Part shown: one piece after another, positions 509 to 55,786 of the stretch
Numbering within the stretch: position 1 is the stretch's first letter
Layout of the letters: every line of letters starts with the position of its first letter
From: Clostridia bacterium
Lineage (GTDB): Bacteria; Bacillota; Clostridia; Christensenellales; Borkfalkiaceae
Assembly (NCBI GenBank): GCA_029066845.1
Contig: JAIEFR010000009.1
Coordinates: 1 to 55,878 of the forward strand
Direction of reading: 5' to 3'
Length of the DNA: 55,878 bases
Notes under the pieces: model-generated
Told to the model about the DNA's origin: nothing
Seen by the model: the letters and a program-made list of their open reading frames with translations, nothing else
Databases searched by the model: none
Made by a program: the position numbers and the translations under genes

Positions 509-545
509 AAAGCCGAAAGCGGTTTTCCGCTTTCGGCTTTCCTTT
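509..545 (+). terminator. Rho-independent terminator of the collagen-like gene
   Basis: A perfect 14-bp stem (509-522 with 527-540) has a TTTT loop and is followed by a T-rich tail. It lies 12 bp after the stop codon. The T tract runs directly into the left attachment repeat, so the prophage inserted right behind this gene. Confidence 0.92.
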
Positions 546-569
546 TTGGTCGAGGCGACGGGATTTGAA
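543..569. repeat. Left attachment site (attL), copy of tRNA-Pro 3' end
   Basis: These 27 bp are identical to 10363-10389. They cover the CCA end, acceptor 3' strand and T arm of tRNA-Pro. After 569 the sequence diverges from the tRNA, so this is only a tRNA fragment left by integration. Confidence 0.93.
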
Positions 570-703
570 GCGGTGAGAAGTCGCAAAAACGGGGGCGTTT
601 TGCGGAATTTTTTCAAAAAAACGGGCAAATTTGCACGGTTTTTTGAAGCTTCCCCGAATTGCCCCCGCAATAAATCAAACGTTCAAAAATTCTACTGCAC
701 ATT

Positions 704-735
704 AAAAACTGCTTGTTTAAACGGGCAGTTTTTTT
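704..735 (+). terminator. Rho-independent terminator near the left prophage end
   Basis: A 9-bp stem (704-712 with 725-733) is followed by T residues. No gene precedes it inside the element. It would insulate the RNA promoter at 763-768 from read-through. Confidence 0.75.
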
Positions 736-762
736 CAATGAGAACCGCTCTGACACGCGCGA

Positions 763-768
763 TATAAT
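763..768 (+). promoter_or_regulatory. Candidate promoter (-10 TATAAT) of the structured RNA
   Basis: A perfect TATAAT is placed so that transcription would begin at about 775-781, exactly where a long perfect hairpin starts. No good -35 box is visible at 16-18 bp, so an activator or a phage-specific factor may be involved. Confidence 0.6.
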
Positions 769-775
769 CATTATC

Positions 776-1430
776 AGCTAAATGCCCGACATTTCATAGG
801 GATAACGCTTTATCCCGTGTCGGGCATTTGTAATCGTGCCGAAGGCACATACGACCGCATAGAGAGATAATTACGGGGTAAGGGTGAAACCCTTCCTTAT
901 TTTCGAATGGTTGCAGCGTGTGAAACCATTTGTTGATAACTTTGACAGAATACACGCGCAAACCGTTTGTTTTCAAACTACTCACGACCGCATAGGGCGT
1001 ACGGGTGCTTAAACCAGACAATTGGAAGTCTAACGACGTGACGCGCCTTGCAAATAGGAGGTAAAACCACCGATTTGTAAGGCGCATATACCAAACCTTG
1101 CGGTTTGGAGTAAGCTCCAAACCATATTATTGCGTGGGGGAGATATAAGCCTTGTAAAGTGATAAGTCTTTGATTTGCGCTTTCGCCTGGTTATCCCCTT
1201 GAAAGGGGAAAACAAACAAAATATGCCTGTCCGCGGCGCGCTTTCTTACTATCTGCCCGTAAGACGTGCCGCGGTTAATTCCCGTCTTGCGACCAGATAA
1301 CCACCACTTGATTATTTAAAGACGGCAGCCCCGTCTATTCGGTGATTTTTATTGCAGCGGCTCACCGTCGAAACAGTAGCAACAGCTTTGTTTCTGGCAC
1401 CTGACAGTTTAGCGACTTGTCGCGTGGTCG
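776..1430 (+). ncRNA. Candidate large structured RNA (about 650 nt) of the prophage
   Basis: There is no plausible ORF, but at least a dozen stems can be drawn. The main ones are 781-791/818-828 enclosing 799-805/810-816, 836-840/844-848, 880-885/889-894, 916-921/952-957, 965-969/974-978, 1043-1055/1073-1085, 1102-1110/1115-1123, 1231-1240/1265-1274, 1340-1345/1362-1367, 1370-1375/1389-1394 and 1412-1415/1420-1423. A long-range 7-bp stem, 1189-1195/1296-1302, encloses several of these. Two long stems contain G-U wobbles (1050 with 1078, 1238 with 1267) that pair only if the plus strand is the RNA. Alternative pairings (1091-1097/1102-1108 and 1258-1266/1283-1291) suggest pseudoknots or switching. 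Size, ornateness and prophage location recall ROOL and GOLLD RNAs, but membership cannot be decided by eye. The 3' end is uncertain. Confidence 0.7.
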
Positions 1431-1559
1431 GATCTTATACAATTGTGTTACACCCGTAAAAAAGCGTACTTTATAAATATGGCAAGTGATGTTTTACTTG
1501 TCAAATTTAGCAAGATTGTAAAAATTTTTTTATATATAGTGTCGCGGCTAATGCCAGAA

Positions 1560-1606
1560 CACAATATATTGTGGTATATCAAACCGCAAATATACAGTAT
1601 ATTGTG
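1560..1606. promoter_or_regulatory. Pair of NrdR-like boxes inside the prophage
   Basis: CACAATATATTGTG (1560-1573) is a perfect palindrome. TACAGTATATTGTG (1593-1606) is an imperfect copy centred 33 bp away, about three helical turns. NrdR boxes (consensus close to ACACWATATATWGTGT) normally occur as such pairs. The same 14-mer occurs at 55726. No ribonucleotide reductase gene is nearby, so the target in the phage is unclear. Confidence 0.5.
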
Positions 1607-1620
1607 GTTAAATTAAAAAG

Positions 1621-1650
1621 CGGTGATTTAAGCAAAGGCTTAAATCACCG
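1621..1650. other. Perfect 13-bp hairpin in the non-coding region
   Basis: CGGTGATTTAAGC (1621-1633) pairs without mismatch with 1638-1650 around an AAAG loop. There is no T tract directly after it on either strand, so it is not a typical terminator. In a single-stranded DNA phage such a hairpin could serve as an origin or packaging signal. Confidence 0.5.
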
Positions 1651-1740
1651 TGTGAATTGTTTTATTTTGTTGTGTGCGTTGTTCTGATGAACGCGCTGCA
1701 CGTTACGCTTAAATGGTTTATATCGCATAATTATCTTGTT

Positions 1741-1840
1741 TAGAGTGGTTGTAGGCCGCATTATTTTGGCTAGAGTAGTAATTCGATTTACTACTCTATG
1801 CAGATCTACGTTGAGTAGTTGCAGGCCGTACTAGTCTGGA
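1741..1840. repeat. Imperfect 30-bp direct repeat flanking an 11-bp hairpin (possible phage origin)
   Basis: Positions 1741-1770 and 1811-1840 match at 22 of 30 bases and share AGGCCG. Between them, TAGAGTAGTAA (1771-1781) pairs perfectly with 1788-1798. The second repeat overlaps the 3' end of the 72-residue ORF. Iteron-like repeats with a hairpin in the main intergenic region fit a replication or packaging site; this is inference. Confidence 0.4.
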
Positions 1841-2049
1841 TATTTATTTCTTTGTCGGTCGTACTTGTTCGAAAGCCGGCAAACGTTGCATTTAACGTTG
1901 CCGTTCTGTCCGAAGCTCCAACCGATGGAGCGCGCCGCCTGTGCGCCGTTGTAAATTCCGCGTTGGTTGTTTTGTGGAATTTCTTCTTGCTTGCCGCACT
2001 TGTCGCAGGTGCATAGAAATATATGTATGTCGTAACCTGTTACAGGCAT
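1831..2049 (-). CDS. Small Cys-rich zinc-ribbon-like protein of the prophage
   Basis: This 72-residue product has an N-terminal CTCDKC cluster (about residues 14-19) and a later CNVC pair, enough for one zinc site. A strong ribosome site, AAGGAG, lies 8 nt before the ATG at 2049. It is the last gene of the leftward block and lies 67 bp after its neighbour, next to the hairpin and repeat region. I do not recognise the family. By position and metal-binding look it could bind DNA or regulate late genes, but that is inference. It overlaps shadow frames on both strands. The ribosome site and the Cys pattern are why this frame was chosen. Confidence 0.65.
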   Translation of the reverse strand: MPVTGYDIHIFLCTCDKCGKQEEIPQNNQRGIYNGAQAARSIGWSFGQNGNVKCNVCRLSNKYDRQRNKYPD

Positions 2050-2116
2050 TTTTGTTTCTCCTTATGTGTGCACGTTGAATGGTTGCAAGTATTGAAACCA
2101 TTTAACGTTAAAAAAA

Positions 2117-2833
2117 TTACTTACTGGTAAGATCTTCGAAGTTAATTTGCCCGGCAAGCTGCGGCGCGGGTGCAGTAGTAGCGGGCGGCTCTGTAGTGGG
2201 TTGCGCAATCTTTTTCGGCTTTGCTTTTGGCTTCGGTTCTTCCGACGTCGGCGCGGCTGCGGGTGGTTTTGCAACATCTTCGGCGGTTTTTTTAGTTTTT
2301 TCGTCGCTCTGATGCGCTGCATCACTCGCACCGGGCGCGGCGGTGGAAGGCTCCGAAGGTGGTACAACGGCTGCGGGTTCACGTGTGGATCCATTCACCT
2401 GCGCTGCTGTTCCCGGTGTCGGCTCTACAGCTGCAGACGGTTTTGGTTGCTCGATAGCGGTGGTGGATTCGGCTTCTTCATTTGCTTCTTCAAGTGCTTC
2501 TACAGCTTCCCAACGTAAATTGAAATGTGAACGAATTTCGGCGTTTGCCTCACGGTTTGCAAGTTTTTTGGCTTCATTTTTGAATAGCCATAAAAAGCCG
2601 CGTTGTTTTGGTGTTTGAAGACTTTTCTTAAGAGTGTAAAAATATTTATCGTATTCGTACTCGCCGTCGAATTTTAGTGATAAAATTTCGGAAAGCTTTT
2701 TGTAAGTATCAGAATAATCGTTAAGCATTTTGTCATATAAAGGCTTGCCGAGAACTTCAATAGCTTCGTATAAATCACCACATTTTTTATAAAATTGTTT
2801 TTGCAGTTCTGCAAGTTTTTCTATAATATTCAT
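2117..2833 (-). CDS. Unknown prophage protein: helical N-terminus, long Ala/Pro/Glu-rich tail
   Basis: The chosen start (ATG at 2833, MNIIEKLAELQKQF) lies 4 bp after the stop of the Zot gene. A longer frame starting at 2944 would overlap that gene and is less likely. The product is 238 residues. The first 110 or so are charged and probably helical. The rest is low complexity, rich in Ala, Pro, Thr, Glu and Lys (many AP and PK steps), and ends in GQINFEDLTSK. There is no signal peptide and no membrane segment. Its position directly after the Zot ATPase suggests a cytosolic partner in assembly or DNA handling. The conserved-looking C-terminal peptide could be a docking motif. No family is recognised. 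Confidence 0.7.
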   Translation of the reverse strand: MNIIEKLAELQKQFYKKCGDLYEAIEVLGKPLYDKMLNDYSDTYKKLSEILSLKFDGEYEYDKYFYTLKKSLQTPKQRGFLWLFKNEAKKLANREANAEIRSHFNLRWEAVEALEEANEEAESTTAIEQPKPSAAVEPTPGTAAQVNGSTREPAAVVPPSEPSTAAPGASDAAHQSDEKTKKTAEDVAKPPAAAPTSEEPKPKAKPKKIAQPTTEPPATTAPAPQLAGQINFEDLTSK

Positions 2834-2837
2834 ACTT

Positions 2838-3650
2838 TTAATCTTCTTCAAGCTTCTTTCTATATTCAGGTGGTTCGGCGGGGTTGTACAGTTTAGCAAT
2901 GTTTTTCGGAAGCTTCTTGATGTTGGTTTTGCTTGGAAGCTCAAGCAAGCTGAAGTTTTCAGTTTCTCCCGGTAAAAATTCTTTTGCGCATTCGAAGCTG
3001 TCGTAATATTTGAAAATGTTGCCTACGTGTTCGTACGTTGTTTCGGTGTAAGTTTTTTCACCCGATTCTACGTACTGCAGATACTTGGCTGCGCCTTCGA
3101 ACTCGCGGCAAAACCACGTAGTTTTTACTATTCTTCCGAGTTCGTCTTTTTCGTGCTCCTGTTTTAAAATCTCAATAACGCGGTTAAGATTATCGCGTAC
3201 AAGCGTATTGATATTCATAATGCGGTGCACGTCGATATAAATATTAAGCCAGAAATGGCGGTTTTTGTTGCTTAGCTCGCTTGCCATTGCGGGCAAGTCC
3301 TTTTTGTGGCTGTCGTAAACTCTGTCCATTTCGGTCAAGAACGCAACGCCGTAGGGCATTATGGGCTGCGTTTCGTTGCCTTGGTTAGGCATACCGAAGT
3401 AGTAAGGGTTGAGCCAATAAGGGGAGTAAGTCTTTTTATATCCGATAGGTATGCTAACGTCAAAGTTAGCATAGAACGGGGCGCGGTCAGGTTTCGAGAG
3501 CGGCTTTTTACGTGCCTTGTTAAACTCTTCGATTTTGGCAATGCACTTGTTAAGGCGTGCCCGGCGTTCGGTTAATACGTACGTTTTAAGCTTGTAAACC
3601 AAAAACGAGGTTTTGCCCGCGCCCGTGCCGCCGACTATTGCGGTAATCAT
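2838..3650 (-). CDS. zot: Zot-family assembly/export ATPase (inovirus pI-like)
   Basis: This 270-residue P-loop protein has Walker A GGTGAGKT at residues 7-14 and a Walker B-like strand, VAFLTEMDRVY. A segment NKNRHFWLNIYIDVHR...LVRDN follows the Zot pattern of an Arg-His pair, a strand with an Ile-rich core, and a later Arg. In filamentous phages pI/Zot drives virion extrusion through the inner membrane. Most Zot proteins have a transmembrane helix after the ATPase domain and a periplasmic tail. Here the protein stops without any membrane segment. The gene just upstream (3647-3856, overlapping by 4 bp) encodes a small membrane protein that may supply the membrane part. This is the main marker gene for the inovirus assignment. 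Confidence 0.85.
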   Translation of the reverse strand: MITAIVGGTGAGKTSFLVYKLKTYVLTERRARLNKCIAKIEEFNKARKKPLSKPDRAPFYANFDVSIPIGYKKTYSPYWLNPYYFGMPNQGNETQPIMPYGVAFLTEMDRVYDSHKKDLPAMASELSNKNRHFWLNIYIDVHRIMNINTLVRDNLNRVIEILKQEHEKDELGRIVKTTWFCREFEGAAKYLQYVESGEKTYTETTYEHVGNIFKYYDSFECAKEFLPGETENFSLLELPSKTNIKKLPKNIAKLYNPAEPPEYRKKLEED

Positions 3651-3856
3651 TCTTTACTCTTAATCAGCTTAATTAAAATAACCGTTACGAATATGGCCGC
3701 GAGAATGCCGGCTCCGATAGTAAGCCCGGTGAACGTATTCAGGAGCGCACCGAACGTCGGAACGACGTCCGCGTAATATCCGAATAAAATTCTTGCCACT
3801 AATAGTGCTGCGAAGGCGATTAGTAAAAATACAGTAAATGCTATTGACTTTTTCAT
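3647..3856 (-). CDS. Small two-helix membrane protein, candidate major coat protein or Zot membrane partner
   Basis: This is a 69-residue product with start MKKSIAF at 3856. A longer frame from 3919 lacks a ribosome site. It has one hydrophobic helix near residues 6-25 (signal-like), a short region with Asp (YYADVVP), a second helix near 42-63, and a basic end, KLIKSKE. Inovirus major coat proteins are of this size and have a cleavable signal, an acidic N-terminus, one helix and a basic C-terminus that faces the DNA. No clean signal peptidase site is visible, so a role as membrane partner of the adjacent Zot ATPase is the alternative. The gene overlaps zot by 4 bp. No clear ribosome site precedes the ATG. 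Confidence 0.6.
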   Translation of the reverse strand: MKKSIAFTVFLLIAFAALLVARILFGYYADVVPTFGALLNTFTGLTIGAGILAAIFVTVILIKLIKSKE

Positions 3857-3893
3857 AATGATTGCATATAATGTAAATGAGGATTTACCTCTT

Positions 3894-3911
3894 AGGCGTT
3901 CCGGAACGCCT
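3894..3911. other. Perfect 18-bp palindrome upstream of the coat-like gene
   Basis: AGGCGTTCCGGAACGCCT reads the same on both strands. It lies about 40 bp upstream of the 69-residue ORF in the leftward transcript and could fold into a 7-bp hairpin with a CCGG loop. A role in mRNA stability, processing or protein binding is possible. Confidence 0.5.
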
Positions 3912-3952
3912 TCACCCACGTCAACCGAAGTAAAGTAAGGGGCGTGGGATTT

Positions 3953-4345
3953 TTATTTTTTAAAGCTTCTATGTTTCCAATTTTTAAGCTTGCGTTTGTA
4001 AGTTTTTCGGTGCTTAGGTTTTGCGTTGTGTACGCCGCGACGTACTTTGCGTAGTTCCTTATTTGTAAGCTTGTCGTTGGTGTTTTCTAAATCGTTGGGA
4101 TAAATAGGCTTATAAGTGCTGTCTGACTGTTTAATGCCCATTACGGTTTCACGCCCTACGACAGTATCTTTTGTCAAAGAGGGGTGGTTTTTGGGCTTTA
4201 AGATTACGCCCGGAATAAACGTTTTGCCGATTTTTCCTTCTTTGCCTTCAAGCTTAGAGAGTTTAACCAGAACGACGGCGCCGTCGTTCTTACGTTGTTT
4301 AATGGCTGCAACGCTGCGGCTTTTTTTATTTCGGGGCGTATTCAT
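3953..4345 (-). CDS. Very basic small protein of the prophage, probable nucleic-acid binder
   Basis: The 130-residue product is very rich in Lys and Arg. The N-terminus (MNTPRNKKSRSVAAIKQRK) and the last 40 residues (RKVRRGVHN, KHRKTYKRKLKNWKHRSFKK) are strongly basic. The middle, about residues 24-80, looks like a small beta domain containing FIPGVILKPKNHPS. There is no signal or membrane segment. It lies between the pIII-like gene and the coat-like gene. In an inovirus this place suits a DNA-condensing or single-strand-binding protein, but I do not recognise a family. A rolling-circle Rep is not supported: no HUH motif and no suitable Tyr motif were seen. Confidence 0.65.
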   Translation of the reverse strand: MNTPRNKKSRSVAAIKQRKNDGAVVLVKLSKLEGKEGKIGKTFIPGVILKPKNHPSLTKDTVVGRETVMGIKQSDSTYKPIYPNDLENTNDKLTNKELRKVRRGVHNAKPKHRKTYKRKLKNWKHRSFKK

Positions 4346-4377
4346 TAAATAGCCGTCTGTGGTTTTGAAAATTTTTC

Positions 4378-5937
4378 TTACCGCAGTTTTTTTTTAGATT
4401 TTCCGGCGCGCGACTTGCTTTTCGATTTACTTTTTGCTTTAGCTGGTGCGGCTTCTTTACGTTTTGCTATCCAACGGAAGGGGGCGGAAATTATGTACCA
4501 TAGCCCGGTTGCAATGTATTTCAATAACGTTGCAATGCCCTTAGCGGCGGGCGGGCATAATATGCAAAGAATGACCACGGCGGCAATAACGGCAATAACG
4601 CCGAGTAATGCGAGGATAGCCCAAACCCACGGTTGAACTTTTTTTGCCGTTGACGTTGTCGGTTGGTTGTCTGGCTTAAAGCCTTCGGAGCCGCCGAATT
4701 GGTGCTCGTTGGTCTGCTTGTTATCTACTACGCCGAGGTTGTAAACTTTGCCTTCACGTTCGAATTTAAGACGTAATATCATAACGTCGGAAACTTCGGC
4801 TGATTTAACGTCCGCATCGTCCGCGAATAGTGTACCGATAACGCCCGTTACTAACGGCAACCACAAATTACCGCTTTTAGCCTCTATCTGCGTTTCGTGG
4901 AAGCTAAGTACCCACTGCGTGCCGTCTAACTTGCCGCTTGTCGGGTTTGTAAGCTTATAGTCGGCGTTGTTCTGGTCGGCGATAAAATCTTTCGTGCTCT
5001 GGATTCTATTCCAGGTATACTTGTTGCCGGTTACGATATTTCCGCCGCCGACGTTCCCGGTCTTGTCCGAATATTTGACTGTTACGGGCTCGTGCTCGAT
5101 TTTTGCGCCGTATTCGTAGTCGTAAAATTTGCCCAGGTTATGCGATAAGTGCGTTACGTTGGTGCATAGTTTAGCGTTGATTTCGCGTTCGCAGAAGTAA
5201 ACGTCGGCTTCCATAAGCTTGTCTATGGGTTTGTCGGTGGAGAATGCGACAAAGTGTGCTACGGTCGCGCTGTTGGTTACTGTCCAACCCAAATTTACGC
5301 CGTCGCTGTATTGTACGTAGCCGACATATTTTTTTGGAATCTCTATAACCTCGCTGTCGGTCATTGTGTACGTAATGTCGTCGCCCACGGTGCACACCGT
5401 CCAGAACTGTCCGACGGCGTTTTCGACTTCGGATATGCTGTTTCCGTCTAGTGCTGCTTCGTCTATGCTGCTATCGTAGGGGCGCAAAATGTTTGAAATG
5501 TTGTAGTATCTGACTGCATCGCTTCGAAGCTCGAAGTCAAGAACCTTGTATTTGAAGAATACGTCCGTTGAATTAATATACTTAAGCTTATAGTTATTGA
5601 AGCCCAGACCGGTGCTGTTATCCATTTCCCGGGCGATATTTATAGAACTTGCTTTCAGACGTTGCTTTTGCCCGCTCGGTTGGTATACGTAAATTAAAAG
5701 CTCGCCGTCCGTGCTCTCGGCGATCTGAATAACGTTCAGGCTGTAATCTGTATCGTTGGGTTGATAATCAACGGTTTTGAAGTTGTTATCCTTTCTAAGG
5801 TCGTCCAGAACGTTGGAACCGCTTGTAGCGGCATAGACTACGCTTATGCCGCTACTTGCTACAAAGGAGAGAATGAATAACGTCACTAACAAAAACGCCG
5901 TGACGGTGTATGTAAATTTGCGTAATTGCTTATTCAT
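4378..5937 (-). CDS. pIII-like exported surface protein with C-terminal membrane anchor
   Basis: The start was set at 5937 (MNKQLRK), with GGGAG 9 nt upstream. A TTG start at 5955 is possible. The product is 519 residues. A signal peptide (about 1-35) ends VVYAAT. Then come some 390 residues of extracellular, beta-rich sequence with few Cys. Two hydrophobic stretches follow near the end (WVWAILALLGVIAVIAAVV and a second around LLKYIATGLWYII). The tail is extremely basic, made of KSKSKSK and KSKKKLR. Signal peptide, large ectodomain and C-terminal anchor with basic tail match the architecture of inovirus adsorption proteins (pIII). Sequence-level homology is not recognisable, as is usual for pIII. 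The gene overlaps the end of the 205-residue gene by 8 bp. Confidence 0.7.
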   Translation of the reverse strand: MNKQLRKFTYTVTAFLLVTLFILSFVASSGISVVYAATSGSNVLDDLRKDNNFKTVDYQPNDTDYSLNVIQIAESTDGELLIYVYQPSGQKQRLKASSINIAREMDNSTGLGFNNYKLKYINSTDVFFKYKVLDFELRSDAVRYYNISNILRPYDSSIDEAALDGNSISEVENAVGQFWTVCTVGDDITYTMTDSEVIEIPKKYVGYVQYSDGVNLGWTVTNSATVAHFVAFSTDKPIDKLMEADVYFCEREINAKLCTNVTHLSHNLGKFYDYEYGAKIEHEPVTVKYSDKTGNVGGGNIVTGNKYTWNRIQSTKDFIADQNNADYKLTNPTSGKLDGTQWVLSFHETQIEAKSGNLWLPLVTGVIGTLFADDADVKSAEVSDVMILRLKFEREGKVYNLGVVDNKQTNEHQFGGSEGFKPDNQPTTSTAKKVQPWVWAILALLGVIAVIAAVVILCILCPPAAKGIATLLKYIATGLWYIISAPFRWIAKRKEAAPAKAKSKSKSKSRAGKSKKKLR

Positions 5938-6547
5938 ATTCAGTGCTCCCGACAATATTTCCGTTACCCATATTTACGCCTGTAGGATATACGACGACGT
6001 TAAACGTCAGATTTATAACGTTCGTTTCGTTCTCGGACGTGACAACGATTTTTAAATAATCGTGCTTGAAATTCGACGTTGGAATACCCGTCAGACTTTC
6101 GCCGTACGTGCTCTCAAGCATTTCGTTCAAAAGCTTAGTGGGGCGCACGGTGAAATGGTCGTCTTCCCGGTCGATAACGAATTGTTTCGTTAAGTCCGGC
6201 ACGTCTGAAAAGTTGTACGCCTTTTCCGCGCCTTCGAAGGTGAAGCTTGCTTCGGTCGTTGCGTTGGGAAGTATTTTGACGTCGTAGCCCGCAGCGTTCT
6301 TGCCCAGGAACCCGAAAGCGTTTCCAACTTCGAAGCGATATTCTTTGTTAAGCTCCAAACCATAGCCGCCTTTGTCAGTCGTAATCGTCGTGTCGGCGTG
6401 CACTACATAGAACGTACTGAACTTCGATTTGAAGTTTTCCGTGTACCTTGCAATGAACGTGACGGCGAGAGCAACGGCAACCAGGGCGACGACCGCAATG
6501 ACTATCAATACGATTTTAAATGCAATTTTGCCTTTACTTTTCGCCAT
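5930..6547 (-). CDS. Membrane-anchored exported protein of the prophage (205 aa)
   Basis: A short basic N-terminus (MAKSKGKIAFK) is followed by one hydrophobic helix (about residues 10-33) and then a 170-residue extracellular domain rich in Thr, Val and Asn, with no Cys. This is a type II or uncleaved-signal arrangement. The start shares the MAKSK beginning with the next upstream protein (6550-7698). The two genes are 2 bp apart, so they may derive from duplication or share an export rule. It overlaps the pIII-like gene by 8 bp. Family unknown. Minor virion protein or receptor-binding component is the best inference from place and topology. Confidence 0.7.
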   Translation of the reverse strand: MAKSKGKIAFKIVLIVIAVVALVAVALAVTFIARYTENFKSKFSTFYVVHADTTITTDKGGYGLELNKEYRFEVGNAFGFLGKNAAGYDVKILPNATTEASFTFEGAEKAYNFSDVPDLTKQFVIDREDDHFTVRPTKLLNEMLESTYGESLTGIPTSNFKHDYLKIVVTSENETNVINLTFNVVVYPTGVNMGNGNIVGSTEYE

Positions 6548-6549
6548 AA

Positions 6550-7698
6550 TTAGTACCCGACTATATCCGAAGGCGTTAACGTTATATTCGAAGCTTTAAC
6601 TTCAAAGCCAGACCAGTCTTCAAACTCCAAGTCGTAACTGTCAGTTTCATATACGCCGATTTCAATGGTATAGCCGCTGCCGTCGTCATAATCACGTGTA
6701 AATCTGCTATGTAAATAAACTCGTACAGTTATCCAGGAATAGCCGTTCATTTGCTCGGGCTTTTGACCGTGCAAAAAGAATTCAGAAGCGGCACTCCAAG
6801 AACCGGAGCGGTCGTCTGCATAGCTATCGCCAATAAGTCCAATGACTACTTGACGTGCATTAAAAATGCCTTGTCCGATAAGGTTTTCGTCATAAGAAAT
6901 GAAAATTGAATAGGTATCCGAAGGCGACGTTTGGTCGCTGCTCGAATACGAATAGCCCTTTGAGCTCATAAAGCTTGCAAAGCCGGGCGCTTCAAACCGG
7001 AATTCAATGCAGTTTTCGCTGTCCGGCGCGACAGTGCCGCCATACCAGGACAAAACGTCAAGCTCATAGTCTGTGTCAATATCGTCTACGCCGCTGCAAA
7101 AAGCTGTGGAGATGCCGGTATGAACCCAGTCTACAGTTGCGGTTGCGTATAATTCAGGTACACGTTGAGAACGCGCCGTTACTATGATTTGTTCTTCAAA
7201 CCCTTTTACGATGCATAACGTCGCGTTTGTGCTGCCTTCTTCGTGATTTACATAAGCATAATTACCGATTTTCTTTCCGCTTGCCCAAGAGCTGGCGGGG
7301 TTTTTGAAATCGATGTTGATGTCGGTTTCCTGGTAAGTAGTATTTGCCGGCGTATATTCCACGCTAAGATAATAGTAGGAGTCGGCGGCAAGCTGCGCAA
7401 TTCCGTAGTCTGAATAAGCTTCGACCGGGATATACTCGCTTAAAAGCGCAATGCCGTTGCTCTCGCCTTCCGATATAACGGCGTTGCTTGTTTTGGTGCC
7501 GGTTTCTTCTGGAGCTTCCTTCTTGCCCCAGTTGTGGTACCAGGACGGCGTTGAATACCATTTGCCGCTTGTCTTGTCCCTTAAACCGATGCCGGCACCG
7601 CAGAACGCGCACACGCCGAGGAATACGAGAGCAAGAATAACCGCAAGAACGTTCTTCTTGCCTGTTTTTGCGCTGCTTTTTGCCTTACTTTTTGCCAT
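6550..7698 (-). CDS. Membrane-anchored exported protein of the prophage (382 aa)
   Basis: A strong TAAGGAG site lies before ATG 7698. The N-terminus is Lys/Ser-rich (MAKSKAKSSAKTGKK), followed by one hydrophobic segment (VLAVILALVFLGVCAF). A proline- and Glu-containing linker leads to about 300 residues of extracellular beta-type sequence with many Tyr, Ser and Asp, and DIVGY at the end. There is no second membrane helix. It is the first long gene of the structural block. It may be a tip or receptor-binding protein. I do not recognise the family. The pair 6550-7698 and 5930-6547 shares the same N-terminal motif and topology. Confidence 0.72.
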   Translation of the reverse strand: MAKSKAKSSAKTGKKNVLAVILALVFLGVCAFCGAGIGLRDKTSGKWYSTPSWYHNWGKKEAPEETGTKTSNAVISEGESNGIALLSEYIPVEAYSDYGIAQLAADSYYYLSVEYTPANTTYQETDINIDFKNPASSWASGKKIGNYAYVNHEEGSTNATLCIVKGFEEQIIVTARSQRVPELYATATVDWVHTGISTAFCSGVDDIDTDYELDVLSWYGGTVAPDSENCIEFRFEAPGFASFMSSKGYSYSSSDQTSPSDTYSIFISYDENLIGQGIFNARQVVIGLIGDSYADDRSGSWSAASEFFLHGQKPEQMNGYSWITVRVYLHSRFTRDYDDGSGYTIEIGVYETDSYDLEFEDWSGFEVKASNITLTPSDIVGY

Positions 7699-7837
7699 AG
7701 TCTTTTTATTCTCCTTATCCAGGCATAGCCCGGTTATTTCAATTTCAATGTGGGGCGGGGCTTTTACAGCCTCGTGCGTGTGCAGTGCCCGCCATACTGC
7801 GTAGTAACGTGTTTATTGCTTGCTGTGTCGAAGCTCC

Positions 7838-8038
7838 TTAATCATCATAGAAGCACGTAATATTTTCGATTGCTCCGACAACCTTTGTATAAGTTTGGTC
7901 GGTAGTAATAATTTCCTTGTTGTCTAAGGTAATGGAAGCTTTACCGTTCGTTAGTTGCACAACGTTGACCACGTGGTCAACGTTAATGAACAGGGGGTAG
8001 CCTTGATTAGTTACTTGAAAAAATTTGCCTAACGTCAT
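7838..8038 (-). CDS. Small FlbD-like protein of unknown role
   Basis: This is a 66-residue product with ribosome site GGAGGTGA before ATG 8038, overlapping the stop of the upstream 48-residue gene (ATGA). The pattern GYPLFINVDHVVNVV, NGKASITLDNKEIITT, then VVGAIENI resembles the small beta-barrel-like fold of FlbD and related short proteins: a strand, 'LN.D.I..I', 'I.L.nGk...t', then a helix. No catalytic residues or Cys are seen apart from one near the end. It is among the first genes read from the strong leftward promoter, so an early regulatory role is plausible. Untranslated sequence of about 140 bp separates it from the next gene. Confidence 0.7.
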   Translation of the reverse strand: MTLGKFFQVTNQGYPLFINVDHVVNVVQLTNGKASITLDNKEIITTDQTYTKVVGAIENITCFYDD

Positions 8039-8181
8039 TCGTCGTCACCTCCGTATTCGTCAGGTGCAGTACGTGCGGAAGAGCAGGCGGAACGGCAATC
8101 GCAATTATCACAATCACCGCCGCAGCCGTCTACGTCGGTTCGGGTGCGTATTCTTTCAAATTCTGAATACTCGTTGTACAT
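8035..8181 (-). CDS. 48-residue Cys-rich first gene of the leftward operon
   Basis: The start is ATG at 8181 with a very good TAAGGAG 8 nt upstream. The stop overlaps the next start (ATGA). The product has five Cys in a cluster, CGGDCDNCDCRSAC (residues 20-33), in a short acidic protein ending YGGDDE. This is enough to bind a metal ion. It is the first gene after the TTGACA/TATACT promoter and so should be made early on induction. No family is recognised. It could be a small regulator or an anti-repressor; that is only inference from position. Confidence 0.75.
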   Translation of the reverse strand: MYNEYSEFERIRTRTDVDGCGGDCDNCDCRSACSSARTAPDEYGGDDE

Positions 8182-8197
8182 AGTTGATTCTCCTTAT

Positions 8198-8260
8198 ATC
8201 GTTTTACGACTTATGAACAGTATAGTTTATCGTATTACGATTTGTCAATCGAATTTCGAT
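8198..8260. promoter_or_regulatory. Lysogeny switch: divergent promoter region with three operators
   Basis: On the minus strand TTGACA (8243-8248) and TATACT (8219-8224), 18 bp apart, form a strong promoter for the structural block. Three palindromes follow the plan WTCGNNNNNCGAW: ATCGTTTTACGAC (8198-8210, near the start of transcription), ATCGTATTACGAT (8229-8241, in the spacer) and ATCGAATTTCGAT (8248-8260, over the -35). They are centred 31 and 19 bp apart. The repressor gene starts 23 bp beyond. Binding of the repressor here would shut the leftward promoter. Confidence 0.8.
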
Positions 8261-8282
8261 TTTTTTGCTGTACAATTTTGAT

Positions 8283-8657
8283 ATGGACAGTTTTGGAATC
8301 AAGTTAAAAGAGCTTCGAAATGATAGGGGGCTTACGCAAAAAGCAATGGCGGAGCAGTTGAATATTTCAATTCCTACGCTGTCGCACTGGGAATGTGATT
8401 ATCAAGAACCTGCATTTAAAGATTTAATTATGCTTAGCACGTTTTTCAATGTAACCGTTGACGAGCTTCTGGGAATATCCGAGGGCGGCACAGTTCCAAC
8501 CGTATTGCCGGTTGGGGAGAGTTACACAAGAGAAGAGCGGCGATTAATAGAAGATTATCGGCAACTGAACCATTACAAGCAGGAGCTTATAAAAAACAAT
8601 ATAAAAGCAATGCTCCCCACCGAGGCGGAGAGCGCACAAAAGAATAATAGAAATTAA
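8283..8657 (+). CDS. Cro/CI-type HTH repressor of the prophage
   Basis: This is 124 residues from ATG 8283 (MDSFGIKLKEL). The helix-turn-helix spans about residues 5-60, with the pattern LTQKAMAEQLNISIPTLSHW and a following VTVDELLG typical of XRE-family regulators. The C-terminal 60 residues are charged and helical (YTREERRLIEDYRQL). There is no S24/LexA peptidase domain, so induction is not by RecA-driven self-cleavage. A TACAAT box ends 6 nt before the ATG and no ribosome site is visible, so the mRNA may be leaderless. It faces the three operators at 8198-8260 and is the likely immunity repressor. Confidence 0.9.
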   Translation: MDSFGIKLKELRNDRGLTQKAMAEQLNISIPTLSHWECDYQEPAFKDLIMLSTFFNVTVDELLGISEGGTVPTVLPVGESYTREERRLIEDYRQLNHYKQELIKNNIKAMLPTEAESAQKNNRN

Positions 8658-8666
8658 GGAGATTAT

Positions 8667-8861
8667 ATGTTATTAACTTTTAAAGAATTGAAGCTGAAAA
8701 GATTAAATAATAAAAAAGGTAAGTTGTTAAAGCGGTTATCTTCTTATTCAGATGAGAACGACCCACAAAGGACTTATAGAACAATAATTAATCTGCGTTT
8801 GGAAAAACTTCAACATAAGATAGTTAACGCCGAATACGCTATACGCAAAAGAAGGAAGTAA
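8667..8861 (+). CDS. Small basic helical protein downstream of the repressor
   Basis: This is a 64-residue, Lys/Arg-rich product (MLLTFKELKLKRLNNKKGK) with TAAGGAG 7 nt before the ATG and 9 bp after the repressor gene. It is predicted to be mostly helical and has no Cys and no membrane segment. Co-transcription with the repressor suggests a role in lysogeny, for example as a recombination directionality factor or co-repressor; excisionases are of this size and charge. The sequence itself shows no clear winged-helix signature, so the function is open. Confidence 0.7.
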   Translation: MLLTFKELKLKRLNNKKGKLLKRLSSYSDENDPQRTYRTIINLRLEKLQHKIVNAEYAIRKRRK

Positions 8862-8918
8862 TTACATTTTGCTTCGAAAAATGTAATTAAGTTATTAAAG
8901 ACTAAATAATATAAAATT

Positions 8919-8957
8919 TACTCCGTAGGCGCAATTGCCGAAAGGAGTATTTTTTTA
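8919..8957 (+). terminator. Terminator-like hairpin whose 3' arm contains a ribosome site
   Basis: TACTCC (8919-8924) pairs with GGAGTA (8944-8949) around an inner GGC/GCC pairing. TTTTTTT follows directly. The AAAGGAGT of the 3' arm is the ribosome site of the ORF starting at 8958. Formation of the hairpin would both end transcription and hide this site. A second 12-bp hairpin without T tract (8859-8889) lies just upstream. Confidence 0.6.
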
Positions 8958-9113
8958 ATGAATTTGTATGAAAAAGTTAAGAGGCTCGGGGAGCTGATTT
9001 CCGAACTTGCGGGGCTGTACGGCGAAATGTCGGACGACCTTCCGCAGCTGCACTTCGTGGGCGCACCCGTGCCCGCGGGGTCTGAAGTAAAAAAAATAGC
9101 TGTAACGTATTAA
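8958..9113 (+). CDS. 51-residue protein between the repressor block and the integrase
   Basis: ATG 8958 follows AAAGGAGT with 9 nt spacing. The product begins MNLYEKVKRLGELISELAGLYGEM, an amphipathic helix, then DDLPQLHFVGAPVPAGSEVKK and ends AVTY. Its ribosome site sits inside the terminator-like hairpin 8919-8957, so expression depends on read-through or refolding. The family is not recognised. Its size and place suit a regulator of integration or excision. Confidence 0.6.
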   Translation: MNLYEKVKRLGELISELAGLYGEMSDDLPQLHFVGAPVPAGSEVKKIAVTY

Positions 9114-9250
9114 AATTTCCTAACGCGGGGGTGATGGAGCAGAGAGAAAACGAAGAACAATCAGACGATGGCGGGCGCGATGGGGCGCACGGTATCGAAG
9201 AAAATGAAGCAGTAGGATTTTTGAAATTTTCTAAAATGGAGGTTTCAAAA

Positions 9251-10303
9251 ATGAAAAAATCGTTTTCCAAGTCATTTATTCAAAACGGGCGCATAGTCCA
9301 TTACCGCCGCAGAATACGCGGCAAAAATTCTTGTAGTTACGAAATACGGTACCGGCGGGACGGTTACAATATTTCAGTATCTGCACCCGACTTGCAGACG
9401 GCAAAAGAGAGATTTATAGAGGCGGTAAACCGCCCGGTGTCAGACTGCGGCGCGGCTCTGAACGTTCCGACCGGTTTTTGTGATTTCGCCGAATACTATT
9501 TCGAGAAGTTTTACAAGCGCCGTGTAGCTGCTAAGACGTACAAAACCGAAACGGGGCGATATAGAATTCACATCAAACCGTATTTCGGTGCAGTGCAGAT
9601 AAAGAGAATAACGCCTGAAGCGTGCCAAAATTTGATTGATAGCATACGTAATCGCGGTTTAGGAAAGACCGCCGACGAAGTGAAATGCATATTGAACGGC
9701 ATATTTAGTTGTGCTATCAGACATCAAATAATCAAATTTAATCCGCTTGATATTATCGTATATACGCCGCACGAGTGCGTGACGGGGACGGCGTTCACGA
9801 AGTCGGAAGAGTGGGAGCTGCTCTCCAGAACGGCGGGCACACCGTATCAGCTTATGTTTGCGGTTGCGCTTTATACCGGGCTTCGTCCGAACGAGTATAA
9901 CACGGCGCGTATCGAAGGCAGTTTTGTAATTGCGGTGAATAGTAAACGTAAGGACGGCAAGACAGAATGGAAGAAGATTCCGATTAGTTCGATGTTGCGC
10001 CCGTATCTTGAGAACGTGCAGGAGCTGAAATTCTACGGTGCAAACCGCATACGCGAGAAGCTGCACACGATTTACCCCAAACACGCGTTGAAAGATTTGC
10101 GCAAGACGTTTAACACACGTTGTCAGGAGTGCGGCGTTCTAGACGTCGCGCGCAAGCTGTTTATGGGGCATAGCCTCGGCAAGCTCGATAATACGTATAC
10201 GGGCGTTTCGGACGAATTTCTGTTGAAAGAGGGCGAAAAGCTCGATTACAAATACGAGGTTGCCCCCGAATTGCCCCCGAAGGATAAGAAAAGCGAGAAG
10301 TAA
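9251..10303 (+). CDS. int: Tyrosine recombinase integrase of the prophage
   Basis: This is 350 residues from ATG 9251, which has GGAGG 8 nt upstream. An in-frame extension to 9131 has no good ribosome site and adds an acidic stretch, so it was not used. The N-terminal arm-binding/SAM-like part (about 1-170) is followed by the catalytic domain: Arg212 in LYTGLRPNE, Lys281-Asp-Leu-Arg284 (Lys in place of the usual His), GH307S, and the nucleophile Tyr316 in NTYTG. It lies 63 bp from the tRNA-Pro attachment site, as usual for phage integrases. It catalyses insertion at the tRNA 3' end and, with a helper, excision. Confidence 0.95.
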   Translation: MKKSFSKSFIQNGRIVHYRRRIRGKNSCSYEIRYRRDGYNISVSAPDLQTAKERFIEAVNRPVSDCGAALNVPTGFCDFAEYYFEKFYKRRVAAKTYKTETGRYRIHIKPYFGAVQIKRITPEACQNLIDSIRNRGLGKTADEVKCILNGIFSCAIRHQIIKFNPLDIIVYTPHECVTGTAFTKSEEWELLSRTAGTPYQLMFAVALYTGLRPNEYNTARIEGSFVIAVNSKRKDGKTEWKKIPISSMLRPYLENVQELKFYGANRIREKLHTIYPKHALKDLRKTFNTRCQECGVLDVARKLFMGHSLGKLDNTYTGVSDEFLLKEGEKLDYKYEVAPELPPKDKKSEK

Positions 10304-10321
10304 GGCGCAAAAAAAGTAAGC

Positions 10322-10366
10322 AAAAAGCCCGATTTCAAGCTGTTTTTACTTGAAATCGGGCTTTTT
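10322..10366. terminator. Strong bidirectional terminator between integrase and tRNA-Pro
   Basis: An 18-bp perfect stem (10322-10339 with 10349-10366) has A and T tracts at its two sides. It can end the integrase mRNA rightwards and the tRNA transcript leftwards. It abuts the tRNA CCA end and the right attachment repeat. By position it would come with the phage, while the left copy of the repeat is preceded by the host terminator at 509-545. Confidence 0.93.
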
Positions 10367-10389
10367 TGGTCGAGGCGACGGGATTTGAA
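10363..10389. repeat. Right attachment site (attR), within tRNA-Pro
   Basis: This 27-bp copy is identical to 543-569 and forms the 3' end of the intact tRNA-Pro gene. Phage DNA thus restores the tRNA after integration. Confidence 0.93.
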
Positions 10390-10442
10390 CCCACGACCTT
10401 ATGGTCCCGAACCATACGCGCTACCAACTGCGCTACGCCTCG
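10367..10442 (-). tRNA. tRNA-Pro(CGG)
   Basis: The 76 nt include an encoded CCA. The acceptor stem is CGAGGCG/CGCCTCG with discriminator A. The anticodon loop is TTCGGGA, giving anticodon CGG for codon CCG. The T arm contains GGTTCAAATCC. Its 3' part serves as prophage attachment site. A promoter TTGACT-18-TATAAT (10493-10498 and 10469-10474, minus strand) lies about 30 bp upstream. Confidence 0.96.
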
Positions 10443-55716: not shown

Positions 55717-55725
55717 CTTTTCAAC

Positions 55726-55739
55726 CACAATATATTGTG
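55726..55739. promoter_or_regulatory. NrdR-like box
   Basis: CACAATATATTGTG is the same perfect palindrome as at 1560-1573 in the prophage, here continued as ...TGTGT. It is about 50 bp upstream of a promoter leading to a gene that leaves the window, so that gene could be a ribonucleotide reductase. No clear second box is seen. Confidence 0.5.
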
Positions 55740-55786
55740 TTTTATGCAAAATTAACAACTATTTTAAACTTTTTTGTAAAAAAGTA

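Follow-up and report, generated by a model that had tools for sequence, protein, structure and literature searches.

Filamentous phages are rolling-circle replicons that need a Rep nickase. The Ff phages encode such a nickase, and their noncoding intergenic region carries the origins and the packaging hairpin. ColE1-type plasmids are, by comparison, RNA-primed and have no Rep protein. In the part of Roux et al. (2019, PMC6813254) used here, replication genes are among the most exchanged inovirus genes, the replication modules are proteins (RCR endonucleases and transposases), and a noncoding module does not appear. The consulted portion of PMC12286853 describes ROOL and GOLLD as phage and prophage elements that are large, noncoding, and structured, often lie near tRNAs, and contain pseudoknots. 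The NrdR boxes of ribonucleotide reductase (RNR) promoters are, according to the consulted part of PMC12051234, paired 16-bp AT-rich palindromes with 15- to 17-bp spacers; NrdR is reported to repress at this distance between boxes and to bind when loaded with dATP and ATP.

Here, we analyze an inovirus prophage in which the slot likewise corresponds to a replication module but holds noncoding DNA instead of a protein gene. Like the Ff intergenic region, the module is noncoding, hairpin-rich, and located between the end of an operon and the next gene block; Ff phages have a Rep nickase, whereas none was found in this prophage. As in ColE1-type plasmids, no initiator was found in the module-type phage, and we propose that a structured transcript of some hundred bases runs leftward; unlike them, the element is a phage that packages single strands, and these plasmids have no sequence match to the module. 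The module shares with ROOL and GOLLD that it is large, structured, and phage-borne, but it has no Rfam match and its slot points to replication. Compared to the NrdR boxes of RNR promoters, the boxes found here are phage-borne, often three in number, and have no adjoining RNR gene. In searches of the open-access literature on noncoding or structured RNA in inoviruses, Rep-less filamentous phages, NrdR boxes in phages, cryptic inoviruses, and bajarodino viruses, we found nothing describing such a noncoding module.

Results

An inovirus prophage with a noncoding stretch next to the att site

The window, a 55,878-nt stretch of DNA that was analyzed as a whole, comes from a Clostridia bacterium (Borkfalkiaceae; GCA_029066845.1, contig JAIEFR010000009.1). 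The inovirus prophage occupies its left part (543–10389) as a 9.8-kb element bounded by att repeats (Table 1). It has the Zot/pI-type ATPase, the coat-like membrane proteins, and the size (about 5 to 10 kb) that characterize inoviruses, and its genes are open in the window. Zot is used here as a family name; no toxin was seen in the prophage. To the left of the prophage, positions 1–494 contain a collagen-like gene with GATGPTG repeats that is cut at the window start. In the circular phage, the region under study is flanked on one side by the integrase with its att site and on the other by the operon's 3′ end. The inverted repeat at 705–735 was missed by the terminator scan, its loop being long. 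The host genome also contains a second Zot-bearing element (L070, on the 4.4-kb contig G000:C23), which may serve as a helper; up to the contig end, it shows no replication gene.

Among phage records, bajarodino virus 12 (PQ006185.1, referred to as L004), a circular 9,828-bp genome from Peromyscus faeces, is the closest. Its recognizable genes are in the order seen in the window prophage, and a 1.5-kb noncoding stretch is found at the corresponding position. This record was the only relevant match of the DNA search against phage records; matches to three Mycobacterium phage tRNAs and to Staphylococcus phage 6ec (two records) were short and weak and were discarded. The same search with another module-type element, L061, gave no match.

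Table 1. Positions of the features discussed (window coordinates).
Feature	Position	Strand	Remarks
att repeat	543–569 (left copy); 10363–10389 (right copy)		Exact 27-bp direct repeat, tRNA-Pro 3′ end
Inverted repeat, then T run	705–735	+	By eye; possible integrase-transcript terminator in circular phage
Palindromic hairpin (terminal hairpin of the sequence-only reading)	780–829	both	12-bp arms and inner 7-bp stem; perfect
Double hairpin	863–935	+	Common to phages of the group, module-type and Rep-type
Candidate pseudoknot domain	1231–1299	−	UAUCUG (1299–1294) and CAGAUA (1255–1250) in loop of two-part stem
Hairpin H2	1320–1336	−	Kept in six modules
Element P1	1400–1431	−	Best-conserved module piece
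AGTACGCTTTTTT	1458–1470	−	Same letters in 7 of 9 aligned loci; not in L036 and L102
Promoter-like TTGACA-17-CATATT	1476–1504	−	Directed toward module; contains GACAAG-N10-CTTGCC (1481–1502)
Three NrdR-type 16-bp boxes	1527, 1559, 1592 (1527–1607)		Spacers 16 and 17 bp
Terminator-like hairpin	1621–1650	−	Of the minus-strand operon
Phage operon	1831–8038	−	Small zinc-ribbon-like and coiled-coil-like proteins, Zot-like ATPase, membrane and coat-like proteins, 66-aa protein
Zot-like morphogenesis ATPase gene	2838–3650	−	Homologous to annotated Inoviridae
Repressor (8265–8657), 64-aa ORF, tyrosine integrase (9131–10303)	8265–10303	+	
tRNA-Pro	10367–10442	−	

The slot contains either a Rep-like gene or a noncoding module

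Zot homologues were detected in 29 of 93 genomes of the genus and, at E 1e-10, in 75 of 398 genomes of the family (the window's own genome included). The regions retrieved were 40 with a Zot homologue or related block at their center, nine more (four of them with modules), and a further 40 from the family. The 86 loci counted were the window, L004, L035–L074, L101–L104, and L123–L162. A Rep-like gene was found in the slot of 47; 13 had a noncoding module and no Rep that we could find, and 26 received no class, many of them being cut by contig ends and some having ORFs that lack identity. One of these 26, L040, has DNA-methylase-like and PAPS-reductase-like genes in the slot.

Rep-type loci were recognized by tblastn with 14 Rep queries (26 and 20 loci) and, for L138, by a match to Pfam Rep_1; several of these assignments, e.g., L126, L127, and L140, are weak matches. 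The Rep-like proteins are of unrelated kinds: winged-helix (RepO-, DnaD-, and Rep3-like), HUH (REP_ORF2-G2P), and CRESS-like Viral_Rep. The winged-helix gene of L048, one among those examined, is adjoined by a DnaB helicase gene.

The module-type loci are the window, L004, L035, L036, L038, L052, L061, L101, L102, L103, L104, L123, and L151; the absence of Rep applies to the sequence at hand, complete elements being the window, L004, and L061 only. The 14 Rep queries found no match in the module-type loci by tblastn except in L104, where the match covers only the C-terminal part of Rep-like proteins and lies beyond the tRNA as seen from the integrase. L123 and L151 were called by reading, as they contain no Rep match and no long sense ORF in the stretch; they are 69% identical to each other over 141 columns, and neither has a blast match to other modules. 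No Rep was recognized among all 12 phage ORFs of the window (Pfam and PHROGs), among the proteins of L061 (12 against Pfam, 9 against PHROGs, Zot by homology), or in L004, where 9 of 14 annotated genes were compared with PHROGs, Zot, repressor, and integrase were assigned by homology, and a 52-aa gene and a gene spanning the record start were left out of the scan.

Module and Rep genes alternate on the Zot tree

The Zot tree has 55 tips (8 module-type and 47 Rep-type), since the contigs of five module-type loci carry no Zot. The type changes seven times along the tree, and well-supported branches force at least six of these changes. With random labels, 7.6 changes are obtained; the module types are therefore not clustered. 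Well-supported neighbors of opposite type are the window and L037, L061 and L062, L004 and L053, and L038 with L052 next to L039; L123 and L131, also opposite in type, form a less well-supported pair. The tree has several long end branches, that of L151 being the longest. In the Rep-type prophage L063, two coat-like proteins are 82% and 86% identical to those of the window, its Zot is far diverged, and the slot contains a winged-helix Rep-like gene. Sequence is nevertheless shared between modules from different Zot clades; the module thus appears to move as a unit between phage backgrounds, a behavior known for inovirus replication genes (PMC6813254). Functional replacement of the replication gene by a noncoding module is the best-supported claim of this analysis.

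Hairpin richness is not specific to the module

The region 776–1430 had been read from its letters as a large, ORF-free, plus-strand RNA. Folding and the stem scan bear out its many stems and strong fold, and the region is indeed noncoding and structured and occupies the left end of a prophage that is inovirus-like. It has no convincing ORF, the only frames being TTG-started ones on the minus strand (108 and 61 aa) that run over palindromes. The plus-strand fold of 770–1440 has an energy of −240.2 kcal/mol (z = −7.5, 20 shuffles). For 740–1445, z was similar on the two strands (−7.6 on plus and −5.9 on minus, 60 shuffles), and the palindromes of the region fold on both strands.

Corresponding stretches of four Rep-type relatives (L142, L063, L046, and L039) have z values from −3.9 to −10.6, the L046 and L039 stretches partly overlapping a predicted ORF end and the L142 stretch containing two opposite-strand predicted ORFs that were taken as spurious. 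Values for four coding stretches of the window range from 0.4 to −3.3. Three module-type elements (L036, L101, and L038) fold weakly on either strand (z = −0.7 to −2.0). Hairpin richness exceeds chance, yet it is not distinctive within the phage group. We rejected it as a sign of a special RNA, the noncoding stretches of Rep-type phages being equally rich.

The TATAAT box said to stand right before a perfect hairpin does exist (763–768), and the 12-bp arms of the hairpin are perfect; a promoter role is not borne out, as TATAAT belongs to no scored plus-strand site. For most of 776–1000, no stem is supported by homologues apart from one double hairpin common to Rep-type relatives. This GGGGTAAGGG..CCCTTCC structure occurs as a double or single hairpin, in either orientation and in module-type as well as Rep-type phages, at 863–935 and in L039, L046, L063, L103, L139, L140, and L147; in some copies, it is followed by an AATGGTTGC..AACCATT hairpin. 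It is a candidate packaging or origin signal. GC skew of L004 did not reveal a clean origin signal.

A conserved core leans toward the minus strand

P1 is present in seven loci from different Zot clades (the window, L035, L036, L052, L102, L103, and L104), and longer similarity links the window to L052, the window to L103, and L035, L036, and L102 to each other. Consensus folding with alifold (50 column shuffles each) gave z values that were more negative on the minus strand in every group. Plus/minus values were −4.1/−5.5 for L035, L036, and L102; −5.5/−7.0 for L035 and L102; −2.6/−3.7 for L038 and L101; and −3.1/−5.0 for the window, L103, and L052. Because L035 with L102 is a subset of the first group, three of the four groups are independent.

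H2 has two covarying pairs across six elements, and its G-U pairs fit the minus strand. When read on the minus strand, 96.7% of cells pair, a level reached in 0 of 500 shuffles, with a covariation of 0.48 versus 0.15 in shuffled alignments, the helix having been picked after the sequences were read and six related sequences being few. On the plus strand, 90.0% of cells pair and covariation is 0.29 versus 0.08; the signal is weaker because two G-U pairs turn into A-C. The check for stems kept in homologues by compensatory changes favors conserved structure for a core inside about 1231–1431, on the minus reading.

In the candidate pseudoknot domain, the letters differ between elements and stay complementary (UAUCUG:CAGAUA in the window, ACUUCUG:CAGAAGU in L103, and GUGUCUG:CAGACAC in L052). 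Layouts resembling it are seen in L038 and L101, where homology is unsure. Over 11 modules, 23 hairpin-loop pseudoknots were found versus 10.7 expected, which is near chance per element; the one shared by the window, L103, and L052 is therefore a candidate only. Wobble counts in this domain provide no unbiased strand test because its helices were chosen on the minus reading.

G-U pairs fitting the plus strand alone had been put forward for the region; a symmetric stem scan found four plus-type and four minus-type wobbles in the window. Wobbles in all stems of 11 modules (41 plus-type versus 45 minus-type) favor neither strand, and alifold, H2, and the best promoter lean toward the minus strand, contrary to the proposed plus-strand RNA. 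The phage structural genes have minus sense, and minus is presumably also the strand that is packaged; the strand evidence therefore fits an RNA and folded viral DNA alike.

Similar sequence is found at the left end of the modules of L004 (6690–6900), L035 (9200–9340), and L102 (6000–6057). By eye, the L004 stretch contains a very small hydrophobic minus-strand ORF with a plus-strand terminator opposite, an arrangement that by analogy looks like a type I toxin-antitoxin pair. To the right of the module, L038, L052, L101, and L123 have, also by eye, a winged-helix-like protein of ~80 aa that is absent from the window; that of L052 has no significant Pfam match.

No Rfam family matches the module

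A likeness to ROOL and GOLLD had been suggested. In the window and the 12 other module-type loci, no match to the module reached the Rfam gathering score, and introns, HEARO, and every other Rfam family were likewise ruled out, with no match in any module. No related locus was found in IMG/VR, which was scanned by pattern and by Zot. The pattern scan of GTDB contigs returned 10 stretches, 6 of them Clostridia loci already collected and 4 in scattered phyla that were taken as chance matches. An order-wide pattern scan hit 1 of 396 genomes, the window's own.

A promoter-like block with NrdR-type boxes adjoins the core

Upstream of P1 on the minus strand follow AGTACGCTTTTTT, an inverted repeat, a −35/−10 pair, an A/T-rich stretch, and two to three NrdR-type boxes. 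The conserved promoter block is missing from L036 and L102. The minus-strand site at 1504–1476 is the best of four promoter-like sites in 490–1900 (10 of 12 matches); alone it is weak evidence, because 3.0 sites are expected from shuffles. TTGACA-17-CATATT is present in the window, L035, and L101 and, in weaker form, in L004, L038, and L052. The inverted repeat GACAAG-N10-CTTGCC is found in five loci. As GGCAAG-N10-CTTGTC, it was considered as an operator of the phage repressor and rejected, there being no copy upstream of the repressor. CCGAAAAAAAGCGTAC with TTATAA, from the block adjoining P1, recurs in another genus of the same family (L105, 7503–7530), where it precedes a Mob_Pre relaxase gene by ~430 bases; this sequence match may be due to chance.

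The 16-bp boxes were scanned with what we take to be the NrdR consensus. The window boxes match it in sequence and have the layout of NrdR operators (16-bp boxes with a 15- to 17-bp spacer). Pairs of boxes 30 to 34 bp apart were found in 9 of 13 module-type loci and are absent in L061, L103, L104, and L151. Among the first 46 loci, they occur in eight, all module-type, compared to 0.1 expected per set from shuffles. The second set of 40 has them in L123 (module-type) and in L131 and L142 (Rep-type), on the att side and not on the operon side. These att-side pairs are located directly at att (L123, 4719–4765, and L131, 2690–2736, both in reverse-complement coordinates; L142, 2466–2512) and are possible integrase arm sites or a host-factor site. 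L131, L142, and L103 share a TTTGACACT-like stretch just inside att.

The host has two ATP-cone ORFs: one of 157 aa, presumed to encode NrdR, and one of 726 aa, presumed to encode the anaerobic RNR, which has an NrdR-type box about 100 bp upstream. A strong NrdR-type box (15 of 16) is also seen at 55725–55740, near the right end of the window and outside the prophage. As there is no other gene leftward before the att site, the module is the likeliest target of the window boxes.

Discussion

Our leading reading, held with no more than middling confidence, is that the region is a filamentous-phage replication module and that this lineage exchanges a protein initiator for a noncoding module in one slot. 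Given that module and Rep gene have traded places repeatedly, the module probably starts phage DNA copying without a protein. It would do so as origin DNA with a minus transcript or as a folded single strand. Host enzymes would then begin to copy the phage circle with no Rep from the phage, the module giving, for example, a primer, and NrdR would couple module-driven copying to the host dNTP supply. That the leftward promoter beside the NrdR-type boxes makes a structured minus transcript is supported but not proven, and we infer that the module acts through RNA and through priming. The fullest version, a filamentous-phage replicon without an initiator protein in which a structured RNA from an NrdR-box promoter starts circle copying by host enzymes and in which this RNA-based module can be swapped freely with initiator genes of the HUH, CRESS-like, and winged-helix kinds, is tentative and, taken as a whole, unlikely.

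The stretch may instead be an ordinary filamentous-phage intergenic region whose hairpins act in viral-strand single-stranded DNA (packaging, strand origins), with an overlooked Rep or one supplied in trans by a helper, and no functional RNA; we consider this somewhat unlikely. The comparable hairpin richness of Rep-type noncoding stretches, palindromes that fold on both strands, and the neutral wobble count agree with it, but the failure to find a Rep and the preservation of the core with covarying H2 across backgrounds do not. Helper dependence is the main rival to the replacement reading. Among the seven host genomes of module-type elements for which Zot was available, four have two or three Zot loci, whereas the other three (G038, G112, and G139; assemblies 81 to 91% complete) have only one, and L004 was deposited as a complete circular phage genome.

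A regulatory or scaffold RNA akin to ROOL and GOLLD, working outside replication and present in the slot by accident, would explain a structure that is conserved without a gene and the promoter-like block and boxes adjoining it. We regard it as improbable: it has no Rfam match, and repeated swapping with Rep-like genes is not expected for an unrelated accessory. Decay, by which module-type elements would have lost Rep and the noncoding stretch would be remnant DNA, draws on the fact that all module-type elements but one were taken from genome assemblies, where several lie on short contigs. It is highly improbable, since L004 is a circular phage record, the phage genes of the window are open, the core is kept between backgrounds, and H2 is kept by compensatory changes.

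If the replacement reading is true, a single phage group has exchanged a noncoding module with unrelated initiators, in one direction or the other, at least six times; this would amount to a natural experiment on the essential contribution of an initiator. It might also account for inoviruses whose replication gene escapes annotation, and the NrdR-type boxes would link phage copying to the host's sensor of DNA precursors.
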